From the NCBI GenBank assembly GCA_004362315.1, contig SNWL01000005.1, forward strand, positions 1 to 64,000: 64,000 bases of DNA. Reading direction: 5' to 3'. The notes under the pieces are model-generated. The model was not told the origin of the DNA, did not search any database, and was given only the letters and a program-made list of their open reading frames with translations. This document shows positions 49,395 to 55,981 of this stretch, piece by piece (position 1 is the stretch's first letter; each line of letters opens with the position of its first letter). The stretch comes from Mycobacterium sp. BK086 (GTDB lineage Bacteria; Actinomycetota; Actinomycetes; Mycobacteriales; Mycobacteriaceae). The position numbers and the translations under genes are program-made.

Positions 49395-49850
49395 ATGGCC
49401 GGCCCTGTCGATCGGGTTCTCGCGCAGGATGTGCCCGGCATGCCCGACGACGTTCGGGCTCACTACGTCGATCTGAACAACATCAGGGACGTTCACCCGC
49501 TCGTGGTGTCCGTCGAGACCCTGTCGCGTACCGATACCGGCGACGGCTATGTCCAGGTCTACCGGGTCCGTGACCGCATCCCGCTGGGGCCGTTGACCCT
49601 GCCGACCACCTATACCGCCCGGTTGGAGGTGCCGTCGGCAGGCCCGGTGCTCACCGAGGCCCGCCAGTTCCCGGCGGTCCGGCTGGACTCGGTGGTGTCC
49701 TTCGACCCGATACCGACCGGGACCCGGCTGACCGAACGGATCCGGTTCACCGCGCCGTGGCCGCTGCTGGCCATCACCGTGCGCCAGGCGGTCGAAGCCC
49801 ACAGGGAGATGCTGGACGGTATCCGCAGGCACTTCGAGGCGGTCGGCTAG
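49395..49850 (+). CDS. SRPBCC / polyketide cyclase-like protein
   Basis: A 151-aa helix-grip protein, with DVPGMPDDVRAHYVDLNNIRDVHPLVVSV near the start and a final helix VRQAVEAHREMLDGIRRHFEAVG, each part typical of mycobacterial SRPBCC proteins. The ligand or activity is unknown. It starts 6 nt after the DUF732 gene. Its TAG stop shares the CTAG tetranucleotide with the stop of the convergent short-chain dehydrogenase. Confidence 0.7.
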   Translation: MAGPVDRVLAQDVPGMPDDVRAHYVDLNNIRDVHPLVVSVETLSRTDTGDGYVQVYRVRDRIPLGPLTLPTTYTARLEVPSAGPVLTEARQFPAVRLDSVVSFDPIPTGTRLTERIRFTAPWPLLAITVRQAVEAHREMLDGIRRHFEAVG

Positions 49851-50587
49851 CCCGCGGTCTTGCCGTTGTCGACGTTGTACACGGCGCCGTGGATGGTGAC
49901 CGCGTCGTCACTGGCCAGGAAGGCGATCACCTTCGCCACATCGGCGGGCGCCATCATCCCGCGCGGCGCAGCGATCCGCATGATCAGGTTCCAGTCGGCG
50001 TCATCGGGCGTCTTGAAGTCGGTGACCTGCGGGGTGAGCATTCCGCCCGGGCAGATCACGTTCACCCGCAGTTGCTCTTTGGTGTACTCGATCGCCAGCG
50101 CCTTGGTCATCCCGACCAGTCCGTGCTTGGCAGCGCAGTACGCCGACGAATACACCTCGCCCTCGATACCCGCGATCGAGGCCACGTTGACGATGTTGCC
50201 GCCGGCTTCCAACAGGTGCGGCAGTGCGGCCCGGATCAAGTAGAACGGCCCGTTGAGGTTGACGGCGAGGTCGTAATCCCAGTCCTCGTCGGTGACCGAT
50301 GCGGTGTGCCGCATCTGGTGAAAGCCCGCGGCGTTCACCAATACGTCGAGCCGGCCGAACCGTTCGACGCACGCGGCGACCGCGTCGCGGCAGGCCTGCG
50401 CGCTGGTGATGTCGACCGACGCGTACCCGCCGCCGGGAACGGTCTCGAATACCGTCGCCATTCGGTCGGCATCCCGCGCGATGCCGAACACCGTGGCTCC
50501 TCGTTCGGCGAACAATTGCGCGGTCGCGGCCCCCAGGCCCGACGACGCTCCCGTCACCAAGGCGACTTTCCCGTCCAGCTGTGTCAT
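49847..50587 (-). CDS. Short-chain dehydrogenase/reductase (SDR)
   Basis: A 246-aa classical SDR. The cofactor loop is TGASSGLG (12-19), NAAG is near 85-88, and the catalytic residues are Ser137 (NVASIAG), Tyr150 and Lys154 (YCAAKHG). It ends VYNVDNGKTAG, as in many 3-oxoacyl or alcohol SDRs. The cofactor preference is not clear: ARD after the second strand would allow NADP. It starts 21 nt after the Cys-triplet repeat gene with AGAAAGGG upstream, so it is the last gene of the peptide-importer operon. Its link to that operon is not explained by known biology. Confidence 0.9.
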   Translation of the reverse strand: MTQLDGKVALVTGASSGLGAATAQLFAERGATVFGIARDADRMATVFETVPGGGYASVDITSAQACRDAVAACVERFGRLDVLVNAAGFHQMRHTASVTDEDWDYDLAVNLNGPFYLIRAALPHLLEAGGNIVNVASIAGIEGEVYSSAYCAAKHGLVGMTKALAIEYTKEQLRVNVICPGGMLTPQVTDFKTPDDADWNLIMRIAAPRGMMAPADVAKVIAFLASDDAVTIHGAVYNVDNGKTAG

Positions 50588-50608: not shown

Positions 50609-51058
50609 CTAGACGTGTACGTCCCTCAGTCCCACCGCGTTACGCAGTCCCGAGCAGTTGTAGCACCCAACGCACCCGACGCAGTCGGTACATCTCACAC
50701 AGCCGACACACGCCGTGCAGCGCTGGCAGGCGACGCAGGCAAGACAGGCCACGCACTTGCGCAACCGCACCGACAGAACCGAGAGCACGCTGCCGACGAT
50801 GAGGGCACTGCCCGCGGTGGCGACCGACCCGACGACGAGGGCGCTGCCCGCGGTCGCGATGGAGCCGACGATCGCCGCACTGCCCGCGGTGGCGATCGAG
50901 GCGTTGACCGCCGCGCTGCCGCTGGTGGCGATGGATCCGGCGACGACGGCGCTGCCGGTGGTCGAGACCGAGCCGGCCACCACGACGCTGTCGGTGGTGT
51001 CGATCGAGCCGGCCACTGCGTTCGGTTCGGGGCGTTCGATGACGGCGAGTGTTTTCAC
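50609..51058 (-). CDS. Repeat protein: seven 12-residue repeats plus twelve Cys every third residue
   Basis: A 149-aa protein of a type I cannot assign. Residues 1-13 form a short leader (MKTLAVIERPEPN). Residues 14-97 are seven 12-residue repeats with consensus VVxGSIATAGSA, alternating small and beta-branched residues, the look of a beta-solenoid. Residues 101-135 are a basic residue followed by twelve cysteines at strict three-residue spacing (C-x-x): Cys102, 105, 108 and on to 135. The C-terminal tail is SGLRNAVGLRDVHV. There is no signal peptide or transmembrane helix. The GTG start lies 12 nt after the importer ATPase stop and the SDR starts 21 nt downstream, so it is inside that operon. 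It could be a metal-binding or redox scaffold, or a modified peptide precursor. The reading frame is supported by the Cys and 12-mer periodicities, which exist only on this strand. Confidence 0.78.
   Translation of the reverse strand: MKTLAVIERPEPNAVAGSIDTTDSVVVAGSVSTTGSAVVAGSIATSGSAAVNASIATAGSAAIVGSIATAGSALVVGSVATAGSALIVGSVLSVLSVRLRKCVACLACVACQRCTACVGCVRCTDCVGCVGCYNCSGLRNAVGLRDVHV
50768..51019 (-). repeat. Seven in-frame tandem 36-bp repeats
   Basis: Exactly 252 bp, seven units of 36 bp encoding the 12-residue repeats of the Cys-rich protein. Units are diverged at third positions but keep codons for GS(I/V)ATAGSA. There are no spacers between units. Confidence 0.85.
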
Positions 51059-51070
51059 ACCGAGAGCATG

Positions 51071-52663
51071 TCAGCTCACGCGCGGTCGCGCCGGTGGTAC
51101 GGCGGCAAGCAGCATGCGGGTGTACTCCTGCTCGGGCGCGGCGAGAAGGTCGGCGGCGGGCCGGTATTCGACCATGGCCCCGTCCCGCAGCACCAGGACC
51201 TCGTGGCTCATCCGTTCCACCACCGCCAGGTCGTGGGCGATGAACAGGTAGGTCAGCCCCAGCTCGCGTTGGAGAGCGGTCAGCAGATCCAGGACCCTGG
51301 CCTGGACCGAGACGTCCAGGGATGCCGTGGCTTCGTCGAGGATCACCAGCTCCGGCTCGACCGCCAGCGCGCGGGCGATGCTGACCCGCTGGCGCTGGCC
51401 GCCGGAGAGTTCGTGGGGATAGCGCGACGCGAACTCGACGGGCAGCCCGACCAGGTCCAGCAGCTCGGCGACCCGTTCGGTCCTGGCCTGGCGGTCGGGC
51501 CGGATCTTGTGCACGGCAAGGGGTTCGGTGATTGCCGCGCCGACGCGGGCCCGCGGGTCCAGTGCCGAGAACGGGTCCTGCAGGACGAGGCTGATCCGCC
51601 GTCGCAACGCCTTCTCGGCGCCACCGCGCACCCCGAAGATGTCCGTGCCATCCAGCGTGGCCGTGCCAGCCTTCGGCGTGACCAGTCCGGTCAGCGCACC
51701 GGCCACTGTCGATTTGCCCGAACCGGATTCGCCGACCAGACCCAGGGTGGTCCCGCGCCGGATCTGGAATGTCAGATCCTTCACGGCCCGCGTCCCGTCG
51801 AACTCGACATCGAGCGCCGCGACATCGAGCAGCACCGGGGCATCGGCCGGGGCCGGTTGCGGACCGCCGGCCCCGAGGAGCGGACGGGCATCCAGTAGCT
51901 GACGGGTGTAGGGCTCGCGCGGCCGGTCGAACACCTCGATGATCGGTGCCTGTTCCACGGCGAGACCGTCGTGCATCACCGCGACGGTGTCGGCCACCTG
52001 GCCCACCAGACCGAGGTCGTGGCTGATCCACACGACGGCGGCACCGAAATCTCGCTGGAGATCCTTGATCAGGTCGACGATCTGCGCCTGGGTGGTCACG
52101 TCCAGTGCGGTGGTCGGTTCGTCGGCGACGAGCAGTTCGGGGTTGCAGGCCAACGCGATTGCCACCATGACGCGTTGCCGCTGCCCGCCGGACAGCTGGT
52201 GCGGGTAGCTGTCCAGGCGCCGCTGCGGGTCGGGCAGCCCGACGGCCTCGAGCAGTTCGGCGGCTCGTTGCCGGGCCTGCCTGCGGGTGAAGTTGCGATG
52301 CGCCTGCAGCGATTCGGTGATCTGGCGCTCCAGGGTGAGCAGTGGGTTGAGCGAGGTGCCGGGGTCTTGGAAGACGAACCCGATCCGGCCGCCGTGCACG
52401 CCGCGCAGCACCCGGGGCTTCGCACCCACCAGCTGGGTGGTGCCCGAATCTCCTTTGCCGGCAAGCTCACTGGAGCCCGTGCTCACAGCGCCGGGGGTGT
52501 CGAGCAGCCCGGTCGCCGCCAGTGCCGTCATGGTCTTGCCCGACCCGGATTCCCCGACGATGCCCAGTGTCTGCTCGGGCTCGACGTCGAAGGATACGCC
52601 TCGCACGATCTCTCGCCGCCCGATCCGTACCCGCAGATCCCGCACACTCAGCACCGGTGTCAT
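51071..52663 (-). CDS. Fused dual-ATPase subunit of peptide ABC importer (DppD-DppF type)
   Basis: A 530-aa protein with two complete ABC ATPase domains in one chain, corresponding to DppD and DppF fused. Domain 1 has Walker A GESGSGKT (37-44), LSGGQRQRV and LLVADEPTTALDV. Domain 2 (from about 275) has GESGSGKS, LSGGQRQRV and LVILDEATASLDV, then the switch His in FIAHDLAV. Such fusions are common in actinobacterial oligopeptide/dipeptide importers. The ATG at 52663 overlaps the permease stop by 4 nt. Peptides, nickel complexes or similar solutes are plausible cargo. Confidence 0.92.
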   Translation of the reverse strand: MTPVLSVRDLRVRIGRREIVRGVSFDVEPEQTLGIVGESGSGKTMTALAATGLLDTPGAVSTGSSELAGKGDSGTTQLVGAKPRVLRGVHGGRIGFVFQDPGTSLNPLLTLERQITESLQAHRNFTRRQARQRAAELLEAVGLPDPQRRLDSYPHQLSGGQRQRVMVAIALACNPELLVADEPTTALDVTTQAQIVDLIKDLQRDFGAAVVWISHDLGLVGQVADTVAVMHDGLAVEQAPIIEVFDRPREPYTRQLLDARPLLGAGGPQPAPADAPVLLDVAALDVEFDGTRAVKDLTFQIRRGTTLGLVGESGSGKSTVAGALTGLVTPKAGTATLDGTDIFGVRGGAEKALRRRISLVLQDPFSALDPRARVGAAITEPLAVHKIRPDRQARTERVAELLDLVGLPVEFASRYPHELSGGQRQRVSIARALAVEPELVILDEATASLDVSVQARVLDLLTALQRELGLTYLFIAHDLAVVERMSHEVLVLRDGAMVEYRPAADLLAAPEQEYTRMLLAAVPPARPRVS

Positions 52664-53517
52664 CGGCCGCGCCCCGCTTCGGTGGACGTGCGCTGTTTGG
52701 GGTCCAGCACATCGCGCAACCCGTCGCCCAGCAGATTGAACGCCAGCACGATCACGAAGATCGCCGCGCCGGGCACCACCGCCACCCACCATGCCAGCGT
52801 CACGAAACCCTGTGCGTCGAAGATCATCCGGCCCAACGAGGGTTGCGGTGGTTGCAGGCCCAGCCCCAGAAACGACAGTGCCGCCTCCGACAGAATCGCG
52901 AACGCCAGTGAGAGCGAGGTCTGCACGATCAGTGGCCCGGTGATGTTCGGTAGCACATGGCGGACGAGGATGTAGCGGTGCGGGCTGCCCATCGAACGGG
53001 ACACCGCGACATAGGGTTCGACCCGAACGCCCAAAGTGCTGGCCCTGGCCACCCTGGCGAAGATCGGGGTGTAGACGATACCGATCGCCAGCATTGTCGT
53101 GCTCAGGCCGGGGCCGAGGATGGCCACGATGGCCAACGCCAGCAACAGAACTGGAAAGGCGAACATCACATCGACGCACCGCATGACGACGGTATCCAGC
53201 CAGCCGCCGCGATAGCCGGCGACCAGTCCCACGGTAACCCCGACGACCAACGCGAACGCGACACTGACGGCGGCCACCTGCAGTGAGGCCCGGGTGGCGA
53301 CCAGCACCCGGGAGGCGATATCACGGCCCAGCTCGTCGGTGCCGAACCAGTGCGCTGCGCTGGGTGGTTGCAAGGCGTTCGGCACGTCGACGTCGTTGAC
53401 CCCGGCCGGTGCCAGCCAATGGGCCCCGAGCGCGGCCACGATGATGGCCAGTAACAGCACGGCGCTCAGCGCGGTGACCGGATTACCAAGCAGCAGACGC
53501 CAATTCGACTGCCTCAT
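52660..53517 (-). CDS. Peptide ABC importer permease (DppC type)
   Basis: A 285-aa permease with the N-terminal part of DppC/OppC (VNDVDVPNALQPPSAAHWFGTDELGRDIASR, cut by a loop), about six helices and the EAA motif (AVSRSMGSPHRYILVRHVLPN). It pairs with DppB to form the channel. It overlaps the next gene by 4 nt on each side, as do all the importer genes. Confidence 0.93.
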   Translation of the reverse strand: MRQSNWRLLLGNPVTALSAVLLLAIIVAALGAHWLAPAGVNDVDVPNALQPPSAAHWFGTDELGRDIASRVLVATRASLQVAAVSVAFALVVGVTVGLVAGYRGGWLDTVVMRCVDVMFAFPVLLLALAIVAILGPGLSTTMLAIGIVYTPIFARVARASTLGVRVEPYVAVSRSMGSPHRYILVRHVLPNITGPLIVQTSLSLAFAILSEAALSFLGLGLQPPQPSLGRMIFDAQGFVTLAWWVAVVPGAAIFVIVLAFNLLGDGLRDVLDPKQRTSTEAGRGR

Positions 53518-54458
53518 GATAACCGGATCCGCGGATCGACCACCGCGTACAGGACGTCCACCACGAGGTTGATGAGCAGGAACAGCACCGCGATCAGCAG
53601 CACCGCGCCCTGGATCACCGGGTAGTCGCGCGCCGCGACAGCGTTGAAGGTCAATCGGCCCAGCCCGGGCCAGGCGAAGACCACCTCGACGACGATGACG
53701 CCGCCGAGGATCGTCGCCAGTTGGATGCCGGTGATGGTCAGCACCGGAACCAGAGCATTGCGCACAATGTGTCGCGACGTGACGACAACGGGGGCAAGCC
53801 CTTTGGAGCGGGCGGTGCGCACGTAGCCCGCCGCGGCCACCTCGAGCACGGCGGAGCGGACATAGCGGGTCATGATCGCGCCGGCCACCAGCCCGACGGT
53901 CAGCCCGGGCAGCACGATGTGCCGAAGCCAGCCGCCGGGGTCGTGCAGCAGCGGCCGGTAGCCGGACGTCGGTAACCAGCCCAGGGTCGACGCGAACAGC
54001 CCGATCAGCAGGATGCCCATCCAGAAATCGGGTATCGACACCCCGAATTGACTTGTCACCCGGACGATCCCGTCCCCGATGCGGCCGCGGTGCAATGCCG
54101 AGTAGATCCCGGCGGGCAGCGCGATGGCCAATGCGATCAGGATGCCCACCAGCGCCAGCGACACCGTGGCCGGTAGCCGTTCCAGCAAGGTGGCGGTCAC
54201 CGGATCGCCGTTGCGGAAGCTCACTCCGAGATCACCGGTGAATGCCGAACCGGCATAGGAGAAGAACTGTTCGAGAAGTGGCCGGTCCAGGCCACTGGCC
54301 GAGCGCAGTGCGTCGTAGGCCTCCGGTGTGTAGCGCGTGCCCAGCGCGATGCGCACCGGATCACCGGGCACCAGGTGCACCAGTGCGAACACCACGACAA
54401 GGACACCGAGCAGCACCACCGCCGAGTACAGCACGCGGCGAAGCAGGAACCGGATCAT
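53514..54458 (-). CDS. Peptide ABC importer permease (DppB type)
   Basis: A 314-aa permease with the DppB/OppB pattern. The N terminus is FLLRRVLYSAVVLLGVLVVVF followed by HLVPGDPVRIALG. The middle has the conserved VTSQFGVSIPDFWMGILLI and the EAA loop is YVRTARSKGLAPVVVTSRHIVRNALVP, split by a turn. It forms the translocation channel with DppC. It overlaps both neighbours by 4 nt. Confidence 0.93.
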   Translation of the reverse strand: MIRFLLRRVLYSAVVLLGVLVVVFALVHLVPGDPVRIALGTRYTPEAYDALRSASGLDRPLLEQFFSYAGSAFTGDLGVSFRNGDPVTATLLERLPATVSLALVGILIALAIALPAGIYSALHRGRIGDGIVRVTSQFGVSIPDFWMGILLIGLFASTLGWLPTSGYRPLLHDPGGWLRHIVLPGLTVGLVAGAIMTRYVRSAVLEVAAAGYVRTARSKGLAPVVVTSRHIVRNALVPVLTITGIQLATILGGVIVVEVVFAWPGLGRLTFNAVAARDYPVIQGAVLLIAVLFLLINLVVDVLYAVVDPRIRLS

Positions 54459-55981
54459 GCCGCGCCTCCCGTCGTCAGCTGGGCGGTGCGGAAGCGGACC
54501 GCGCCGTCCCGGCGGGCCTCGTAGCCGGTCAGATTCGTCGTCCAGCCCTGGATGACCGACGGGTTGTACAAGAAGATGTAGCTTGCCTTGTCGGCGATGA
54601 TCGTCGCGGCCCTGGCGTAATCATCCTGCCGGGCAGGCCGATTGATCTCGGTGCGGGCGGCGTCGAGTAACTGGTCGACTTCGGCGTCGGAGAACTTCTG
54701 GGCGTTGCTCGTGCCCCCGGTGTGGTGTTGGGCGTAGTAGAAATCGTCGGGGTCGATATTGCCCAGCCAGCCCATCATCAACATGTCGAAATGGCCGGTG
54801 TTCTGTTCGTCGAGCCACGTCGCGAAGTCGACGGTGCGAATGTTCACCGTGATGCCCACGGCCGCAAGGTTGTCGGCGATGATCTGCGCGGCGGTGACCG
54901 TCTCCGGGTACTCGCTGGTGACCAGCATGTCCAGGTTCTGGTGGTCGACCCCCGCCTCTCGCAGGAGGTCCTTCGCGCGTCCGGCATCGTGACGGTACCG
55001 GTCGTAAGGGGCGTACCACGGGTTACCCTGCGGAATTGCAAGCTGATTCGCGGTGGCCGTGCCGTAACTGGTGGCCTGCACGATTGCGTCACGGTCGATC
55101 CCGTAGGCGATCGCCTGGCGGACGCGCACATCGTTCCAGGGCTTGCGTGCCTCGTTGAGCGCCAGATACCAGTAGTCGTTGCCCGGGGTGACCGCCAGGT
55201 GGATCGAATCGTCGCCCTTCAACTGCTCGACCCGCTGCGGCGGAATCGCGTCGGTCCAATCGATTTCACCGGCCTGCAGTGCCGACAGCGCCGTCGACGG
55301 TTCGGAGATGAAGCGGAACGTGACGCCTGGAACTTTCGGTGCCCCTGCCCAGTAGTTCTTGTTCGCGGTCAAGGTGATCGAGTCACCGCTCTTACGGTCG
55401 GCGAAGGCGAACGGGCCGGTGCCCACCGGATGTGTTGCGATCTGCCCACTTTCGACATTGCGGCGTTGCACGATCGCCATACCTTTGAATCCGCCGAGGT
55501 TGGTGAGAAGGTTCGGTGTCGGCCGCGCCAGCGCGACGATGACGGTGCCCGGATCCGGTGCGCTGACATCGCGAACGGCACTGAGCTTGTCGTTGTTGGC
55601 CAGCTTCTCGTCGATGATCCGGCGGTACGAGTACACGACGTCGCTCGCGCCGAATGCGGAGCCGTCATGCCAGGTGACGCCGGGACGCAGCCGAAAGGTC
55701 CAGGTGAGCTGGTCGGGAGAGACCTGCCAGGACTGGGCGAGCGCGGGTCGCATCTCAAGGTTGTCGTCGGGCTCGACGAGCGTGTCGAACACGTTCTCCA
55801 AGACCTCGAACGAGAAATAGGCGGTGCTCTTCTGCGGGTCGAGCTGATCGGGTTCGCCCGCGATCGCCGCGGTCAGATTGCCCGCCGATTGCCCGCCCAG
55901 ATCTACCCGCTGACCCGTCGAACACGCCGCCAGAAACAGAAGAAGCACGAGGGCAGCGGTCGATACCGCTGGTCTTCTCAT
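54455..55981 (-). CDS. Peptide ABC importer substrate-binding lipoprotein (DppA/OppA type)
   Basis: A 508-aa solute-binding lipoprotein, family 5. The lipobox is LAACST (Cys about 20). The body has VTWHDGSAFGASDVVYSYRRI, the cluster-5 hallmark for peptide binders (peptide entry and Asp/Tyr positions), and VRQAIAYGIDRDAIVQ. The C terminus is the usual lobe II end. It captures peptides or other ligands at the outer face and hands them to the permeases. It is the first gene of a six-gene operon that ends with the Cys-triplet protein and an SDR. Only about 80 bp separate it from the divergent exported-protein gene. Confidence 0.93.
   Translation of the reverse strand: MRRPAVSTAALVLLLFLAACSTGQRVDLGGQSAGNLTAAIAGEPDQLDPQKSTAYFSFEVLENVFDTLVEPDDNLEMRPALAQSWQVSPDQLTWTFRLRPGVTWHDGSAFGASDVVYSYRRIIDEKLANNDKLSAVRDVSAPDPGTVIVALARPTPNLLTNLGGFKGMAIVQRRNVESGQIATHPVGTGPFAFADRKSGDSITLTANKNYWAGAPKVPGVTFRFISEPSTALSALQAGEIDWTDAIPPQRVEQLKGDDSIHLAVTPGNDYWYLALNEARKPWNDVRVRQAIAYGIDRDAIVQATSYGTATANQLAIPQGNPWYAPYDRYRHDAGRAKDLLREAGVDHQNLDMLVTSEYPETVTAAQIIADNLAAVGITVNIRTVDFATWLDEQNTGHFDMLMMGWLGNIDPDDFYYAQHHTGGTSNAQKFSDAEVDQLLDAARTEINRPARQDDYARAATIIADKASYIFLYNPSVIQGWTTNLTGYEARRDGAVRFRTAQLTTGGAA

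Follow-up and report, generated by a model that had tools for sequence, protein, structure and literature searches.

A mycobacterial protein with a twelve-cysteine run in the three-residue register of a predicted β-solenoid

We analysed a 64,000-nucleotide stretch of Mycobacterium sp. BK086 (assembly GCA_004362315.1, contig SNWL01000005.1, positions 1 to 64,000; hereafter the window) and concentrated on one gene, which encodes a protein of 149 aa with 12 cysteines at exact three-residue spacing (residues 102-135) and none elsewhere. This Cys run forms a head, preceded by a stem of 12-residue repeats and followed by a short C-terminal cap (Table 1). Judged from the sequence, the Cys run is a continuation of the three-residue register of the stem and not a separate module. 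Thus, the cysteines are predicted to form the core of the same solenoid. We propose, with moderate confidence, a single continuous β-solenoid with 12 residues per coil and the cysteines pointing inward. The original prediction on this DNA had noticed 12 cysteines spaced three residues apart between 102 and 135, with seven 12-mers ahead of them. Translation of the open reading frame (ORF) reproduces the former, and the latter correspond to a 36-bp tandem array (6.1 copies, 50792-51011) in which about seven 12-mers can be read. A six-Cys version of the pattern occurs seven times in the window, always within the Cys array, whereas 100 shuffles gave 0.01 on average.

Homologues were taken as the best 80 of 208 relatives from a scan of genome contigs, giving 81 proteins together with the window protein; the 80 loci are not independent, some sharing a species or genome. 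Every third residue of the window protein, read in the Cys register (register 0), gives VSTSVSTSVSTSVSTSISTSVSTSISSSLCCCCCCCCCCCCLALV. Among the 1020 cysteines of the 81 proteins, 971 sit in the longest runs, from which the register is defined, and the remaining 49 all fall in register as well. Ahead of the run, the register repeats every four triads, with an identity of 0.827 at lag 4 and about 0.02 at lags 1, 3 and 5. Polar residues (D, E, K, R, N, Q and H) were counted in fixed windows, with 72 residues before the run for the stem (6 of the 81 windows are shorter owing to the sequence start). In the Cys register they occupy 2/1928 positions of the stem and 13/324 of the cap. The other two registers, by comparison, hold 65/1929 and 118/1931 in the stem, 124/890 and 308/890 along the Cys run, and 254/405 and 136/405 in the cap. 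Because polar residues avoid the Cys register, its residues are probably buried, which amounts to every third residue or four per 12-residue coil; in the head the buried residues are probably the cysteines. The outer registers of the stem are 3% and 6% polar, with about half of that in the last nine residues before the cysteines, and consist mainly of A/V/I and G/A; threonine is found in register 0. A 12-residue repeat with a three-residue register, as in β-helices of the Tenebrio molitor antifreeze protein (TmAFP) type, is present in the sequence itself, and the inward direction of the register is predicted.

Two AlphaFold2 models, one of them of residues 79-149 alone, consist of strands with only one four-residue helix, and the best structural match of both is the Tenebrio molitor / Dorcus antifreeze β-helix (PDB 1ezg), at 11-14% aligned identity. 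Both results agree with the earlier suggestion that the 12-mers look like a β-solenoid. In the proposed solenoid every third residue would point inward, four per coil. The stem would mostly comprise 6-8 coils, with a predicted length of about 30-38 Å at an assumed 4.8 Å per coil, its interior V-S-T-S forming a small-residue Ser/Thr ladder and its exterior made of Ala, Val, Ile and Gly. This exterior is almost uncharged and therefore the stem probably packs with other copies or with a membrane. The head would consist of three consecutive coils with only Cys inside, placing 4 x 3 = 12 thiols in a column beneath a more polar exterior, and the L-A-L-V of the cap would close the C-terminal end. Conservation outside the cysteines includes the cap, where G137, L138 and G143 are found in 81/81 proteins, R139 in 79/81 and R145 in 77/81, and the head, where a basic residue at 113 (71/81) stands exactly one coil ahead of Asp125 (80/81).

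In the reducing cytoplasm, the thiol column could bind Zn, Fe or Cu(I) in a stack of Cys4-like sites. We tentatively place such a metal-thiolate column ahead of a plain reduced Cys core and of disulfides as the chemistry of the head. A far more speculative extension, which we consider a long shot, is that the stem, whose length about equals the thickness of a bilayer, is set in a membrane or protein film, that the end column of metal-thiolate sites stores metal or conducts electrons, and that phages evolved the same column with up to 53 Cys.

A somewhat less likely alternative keeps the same solenoid and treats the Cys column as a packing ladder only, reduced and with no metal or redox role. 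Buried ladders of small residues occur in such folds; PMC3196904 gives TmAFP an internal Ser ladder, and one of the titles that it cites mentions a Cys ladder in Listeria InlJ. Conservation by itself need not imply chemistry, because the stem core residues S48, T69 and S72 are likewise invariant (76 sequences), and positions 96 and 99, which are Cys in 32/81 and 20/81 proteins, otherwise hold mostly S/G and L/M/V. However, a packing ladder should tolerate Ser, Ala, Val or Thr, which the stem uses, whereas nine positions (102, 108, 111, 117, 120, 123, 126, 129 and 132) are Cys in 81/81 proteins and position 114 in 80/81.

It is unlikely that the same solenoid carries a disulfide ladder (C2-C8 across each coil), formed by oxidation during export or stress and perhaps acting as a thiol/disulfide buffer. 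The closest fold offers a precedent, since beetle antifreeze coils are held by disulfides between inner Cys six residues apart (PMC8038014). Equivalent pairs exist here, and a gene for a short-chain dehydrogenase/reductase (SDR) adjoins the Cys gene in 23/80 loci. However, no signal sequence is apparent on reading the N-terminus and therefore the protein should remain in a reducing compartment, and the run lengths in homologues include 7, 9, 11 and 13, odd numbers that leave Cys unpaired.

Slightly less probable again is the absence of any solenoid; the hydrophobic small-residue stem would then form helices in a membrane, with the Cys run as a flexible metal or thiol tail in the cytosol. A classical membrane criterion (a Kyte-Doolittle value above 1.6 over 19 residues) is passed by 81/81 proteins, and R/K is found at residue 100, at the stem-head border, in 53/81. 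Against this, a helix has no cause for a strict three-residue, period-12 register across stem, run and cap, and the only helix in the AlphaFold2 models is the four-residue one.

Repeated Cys with short spacers are found in sactipeptide and lanthipeptide cores, which the Cys run resembles. A precursor of a ribosomally synthesized and post-translationally modified peptide (RiPP), with the stem as leader and the Cys run as core, is nevertheless very improbable: no RiPP-type enzyme is among the 25 most shared of 116 Pfam families in 109 neighbour proteins from 40 loci, and stem, run and cap lie in one register, as expected of a folded rod. Of the readings originally offered for the C-x-x run, the modified peptide has no supporting neighbour among these 25 families, the disulfide scaffold is unlikely, and the metal-thiolate array is our tentative choice.

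Comparison among homologues shows that the ORF at 50609-51058 is a genuine gene and is conserved. Changes among the 81 genes (701 gene pairs) number 15608, 13831 and 38432 at the three codon positions, so that the third takes 38432/67871. The ratio of non-synonymous to synonymous changes (pN/pS) has a median of 0.33 in the sense frame and of 0.48-1.93 in the other five, which contain stops in 446-693 of the 701 pairs; that the sense frame has no stops follows from how the test was built. An artefact, with the real gene on the other strand or in another frame, has a negligible chance: a crude gene caller favoured an antisense ORF at 38 loci, but the best antisense frame has the pN/pS of 0.48 with stops in 603/701 pairs. 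The two outcomes named beforehand as telling against the protein, unconserved cysteines and coding on the other strand or in another frame, were not seen, as the cysteines are kept in homologues and the codon test favours the sense frame.

The original prediction knew of no family with this layout, and this holds for Pfam and NCBIfam, which gave 0 families for the window protein at E <= 1; their metallothionein models gave no match at this threshold. The sole match in a PDB sequence search is at chance level (E 0.15), and tblastn against phage and plasmid DNA gave none at E 0.01, with a low-complexity filter on that may hide matches. Literature searches on Cys-triad motifs, every-third-residue solenoids and metal-thiolate β-helices found no matching protein among the papers listed, and titles found for Cys-rich proteins of Mycobacterium were on other subjects; we claim this absence for these searches only.

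Of 24 further genomes of the genus, 16 carry the gene, and it is found in 20/41 genomes overall when its own genome and three weak outsiders are included. In a wider survey of the genus, 133/296 genomes match at E <= 0.001, 127 with E below 1e-19 and six weakly. Across the phylum, 32/396 genomes match, 25 of them outside the genus. Four of these outsiders are strong, and all four keep the stem and the Cys run (8-10 Cys) and three the cap; a fifth (L118) is low-complexity and was left uncounted, and the other 20 are weak. The best 80 of the 208 relatives come from Mycobacterium/Mycolicibacterium, Pseudonocardia, Actinomycetospora and several metagenome-assembled genomes, with a top identity of 91% in Mycolicibacterium rhodesiae JS60.

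Similar Cys arrays are found in viruses. The window protein matches phrog_15341 (E 2.9e-6, residues 101-138); this match is probably carried by the Cys spacing and is therefore not proof of common descent. A scan of viral contigs (IMG/VR) gave at least 154 arrays; short, low-complexity or duplicate ones made up 115 of these 154 and were set aside, and at least 39 arrays in 27 viral loci pass the complexity filter. Runs of 10-53 Cys at every third residue occur among the matches listed, some as tandem paralogues (array proteins include L102-L105, L124, L128, L129, L141, L157, L160, L194, L206, L220 and L226). Several arrays are preceded by a short WxDxNGNxWxxxxxTxExAxxxSxxLxN segment and the C-terminal parts vary. 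Ten array proteins searched against Pfam gave nine without a match and one weak match (E 0.0032). The four-triad period is weak in the 39 filtered arrays (z 3.5 at lag 4, 2.2 at lag 5 and 2.4 at lag 1) and may reflect local duplications. With a viral array as query, Campylobacter phages were found to hold similar proteins (17 records), and those of CP220, CPt10, CP20, CP21 and IBB_35 are annotated as hypothetical proteins. Foldseek with the head of the window protein matched models from Campylobacter virus IBB35 and from Mimiviridae. The IBB35 model (H6SUK4) is labelled Caib/baif family. The phage arrays (phrog_15341; CP220, CPt10, IBB_35) resemble the head in their long runs with Cys at every third residue, but no 12-mer stem is seen, the N-terminal segment is another one and the spacers are mostly polar, C-x-[D/N/G/R/Y]. 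Convergence of the viral and mycobacterial arrays appears likely, because their N-termini differ.

Table 1. Features of the Cys gene and its neighbours in the window.
Feature	Position	Strand	Basis
Cys-core triad solenoid protein (predicted fold), coding sequence, 149 aa, GTG start	50609..51058	(-)	ORF call; codon test over 81 genes
Stem, residues 15-101, about seven 12-residue coils (predicted), register-0 V-S-T-S, exterior almost uncharged	50756..51016	(-)	36-bp tandem repeat, register analysis, AlphaFold2
Head, residues 102-135, 12 Cys at every third position	50654..50755	(-)	Pattern; AlphaFold2 of residues 79-149 alone
C-terminal cap, residues 136-149, SGLRNAVGLRDVHV, register 0 continues L-A-L-V	50612..50653	(-)	81-protein comparison
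SDR-family oxidoreductase, 21 bp downstream of the Cys gene, adjoins in 23/80 loci	49847..50587	(-)	Library search, locus comparison
dpp-type double ATPase ORF, 12 bp gap upstream, in 7/80 loci	51071..53179	(-)	Named by reading
Four-codon ATG..TGA mini-ORF, stop overlaps GTG start (GTGA)	51055..51069	(-)	Upstream regions compared

The original prediction placed the gene in one operon with a peptide importer and an SDR. The shared strand and the short gaps stand, whereas a conserved link to the dpp importer does not. The Cys gene is an optional passenger that lies beside dpp only incidentally. We rejected a functional tie between the two, since dppDF (counted as upstream if within 600 bp) accompanies the gene at 7/80 loci and each of the pairs Cys gene-SDR and dppDF-SDR occurs without the third partner. 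Twelve loci keep the Cys gene and SDR without dppDF, although two of them (L058 and L076) hold < 1.7 kb of upstream sequence, and most of the 12 keep the order Cys gene-SDR-cyclase-like-MmpL-like; the cyclase-like gene matches Polyketide_cyc2 and MmpL was named by reading. Conversely, 17 of 20 genomes without the Cys gene have the SDR, with dppDF upstream of it in four (L240, L241, L242 and L244). There the aligned parts of dppDF and SDR are about 50-75 bp apart, or about 300 bp in L242, and CxxCxxCxxC is absent in every frame between them. The L022 homologue of the dppB-like ORF of the window matches BPD_transp_1. The dpp operon (51071-55981) itself looks like an optional insert, as related loci such as L027, L030 and L031 have no dpp genes in 8 kb upstream and keep the flanks.

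The mini-ORF lies in a CTGA[C/G]ATGCTC stretch, with the same spacing in 14/15 upstream regions (the window, L022-L034 and L097); L024 has an ATG in frame instead. It is kept in loci without dpp, and the arrangement makes translational coupling possible.

A constant partner gene was also rejected. The SDR adjoins the Cys gene downstream in 19 loci and upstream in 4, the iron-sulfur subunit of succinate dehydrogenase/fumarate reductase (SdhB) is upstream in 20/80 and RNase Z in 5; these three contexts cover 48/80 loci and 32/80 are in none of them. In L035-L048 and related loci, which belong to another mycobacterial group, the Cys gene has an SdhB-type gene on one side and on the other a long ORF (582 aa in L045) that matches acyl-CoA dehydrogenase only weakly. 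The neighbour scan covered 109 of 141 listed neighbours, the 32 dropped being mostly short or overlapping, and none of its Pfam families occurs in more than 7 members; the neighbours show no common function.

If the model is true, bacteria and phages both employ a very tightly wound solenoid whose core is cysteine throughout, forming a linear thiol or metal column that is undescribed in Pfam and NCBIfam and has a PHROGs entry without function. Such a column would be a natural scaffold for protein designers, and an unstudied thiol-rich protein would be present in about 43% of sampled mycobacterial species (the 127/296 strong matches).

Comparison with known systems indicates where the design would stand. 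Pentapeptide-repeat solenoids (MfpA, Qnr; A(D/N)LXX) have five residues per face and differ from the window protein, which has a three-residue register and no Pfam match. Metallothioneins share the small size and dense thiols, and the window protein is probably cytosolic; however, their Cys spacing is irregular (CxC/CxxC), in contrast to strict CxxC triads inside a predicted solenoid. A Cys run is not known in the ice-nucleation protein. Its model in PMC3196904 resembles the stem in having tandem repeats with GS and TA motifs and a β-helix with inward Ser, but the repeat is 16 residues according to a reference title in that article, against a period of 12 here, and its Pfam model is unmatched. 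The beetle antifreeze protein (TCTxSxNCxxAx, 1ezg) is closest, with a 12-residue coil, four inward residues per coil, and Ser and Cys in the core. It is disulfide-bonded and secreted, with two Cys per coil where the head has four, and its consensus with outward Thr ranks is not found in the window protein, whose stem Thr lie in the inward register. Thermal hysteresis and ice binding are claimed here for the beetle protein only. The design of the window protein appears to resemble beetle antifreeze in shape.
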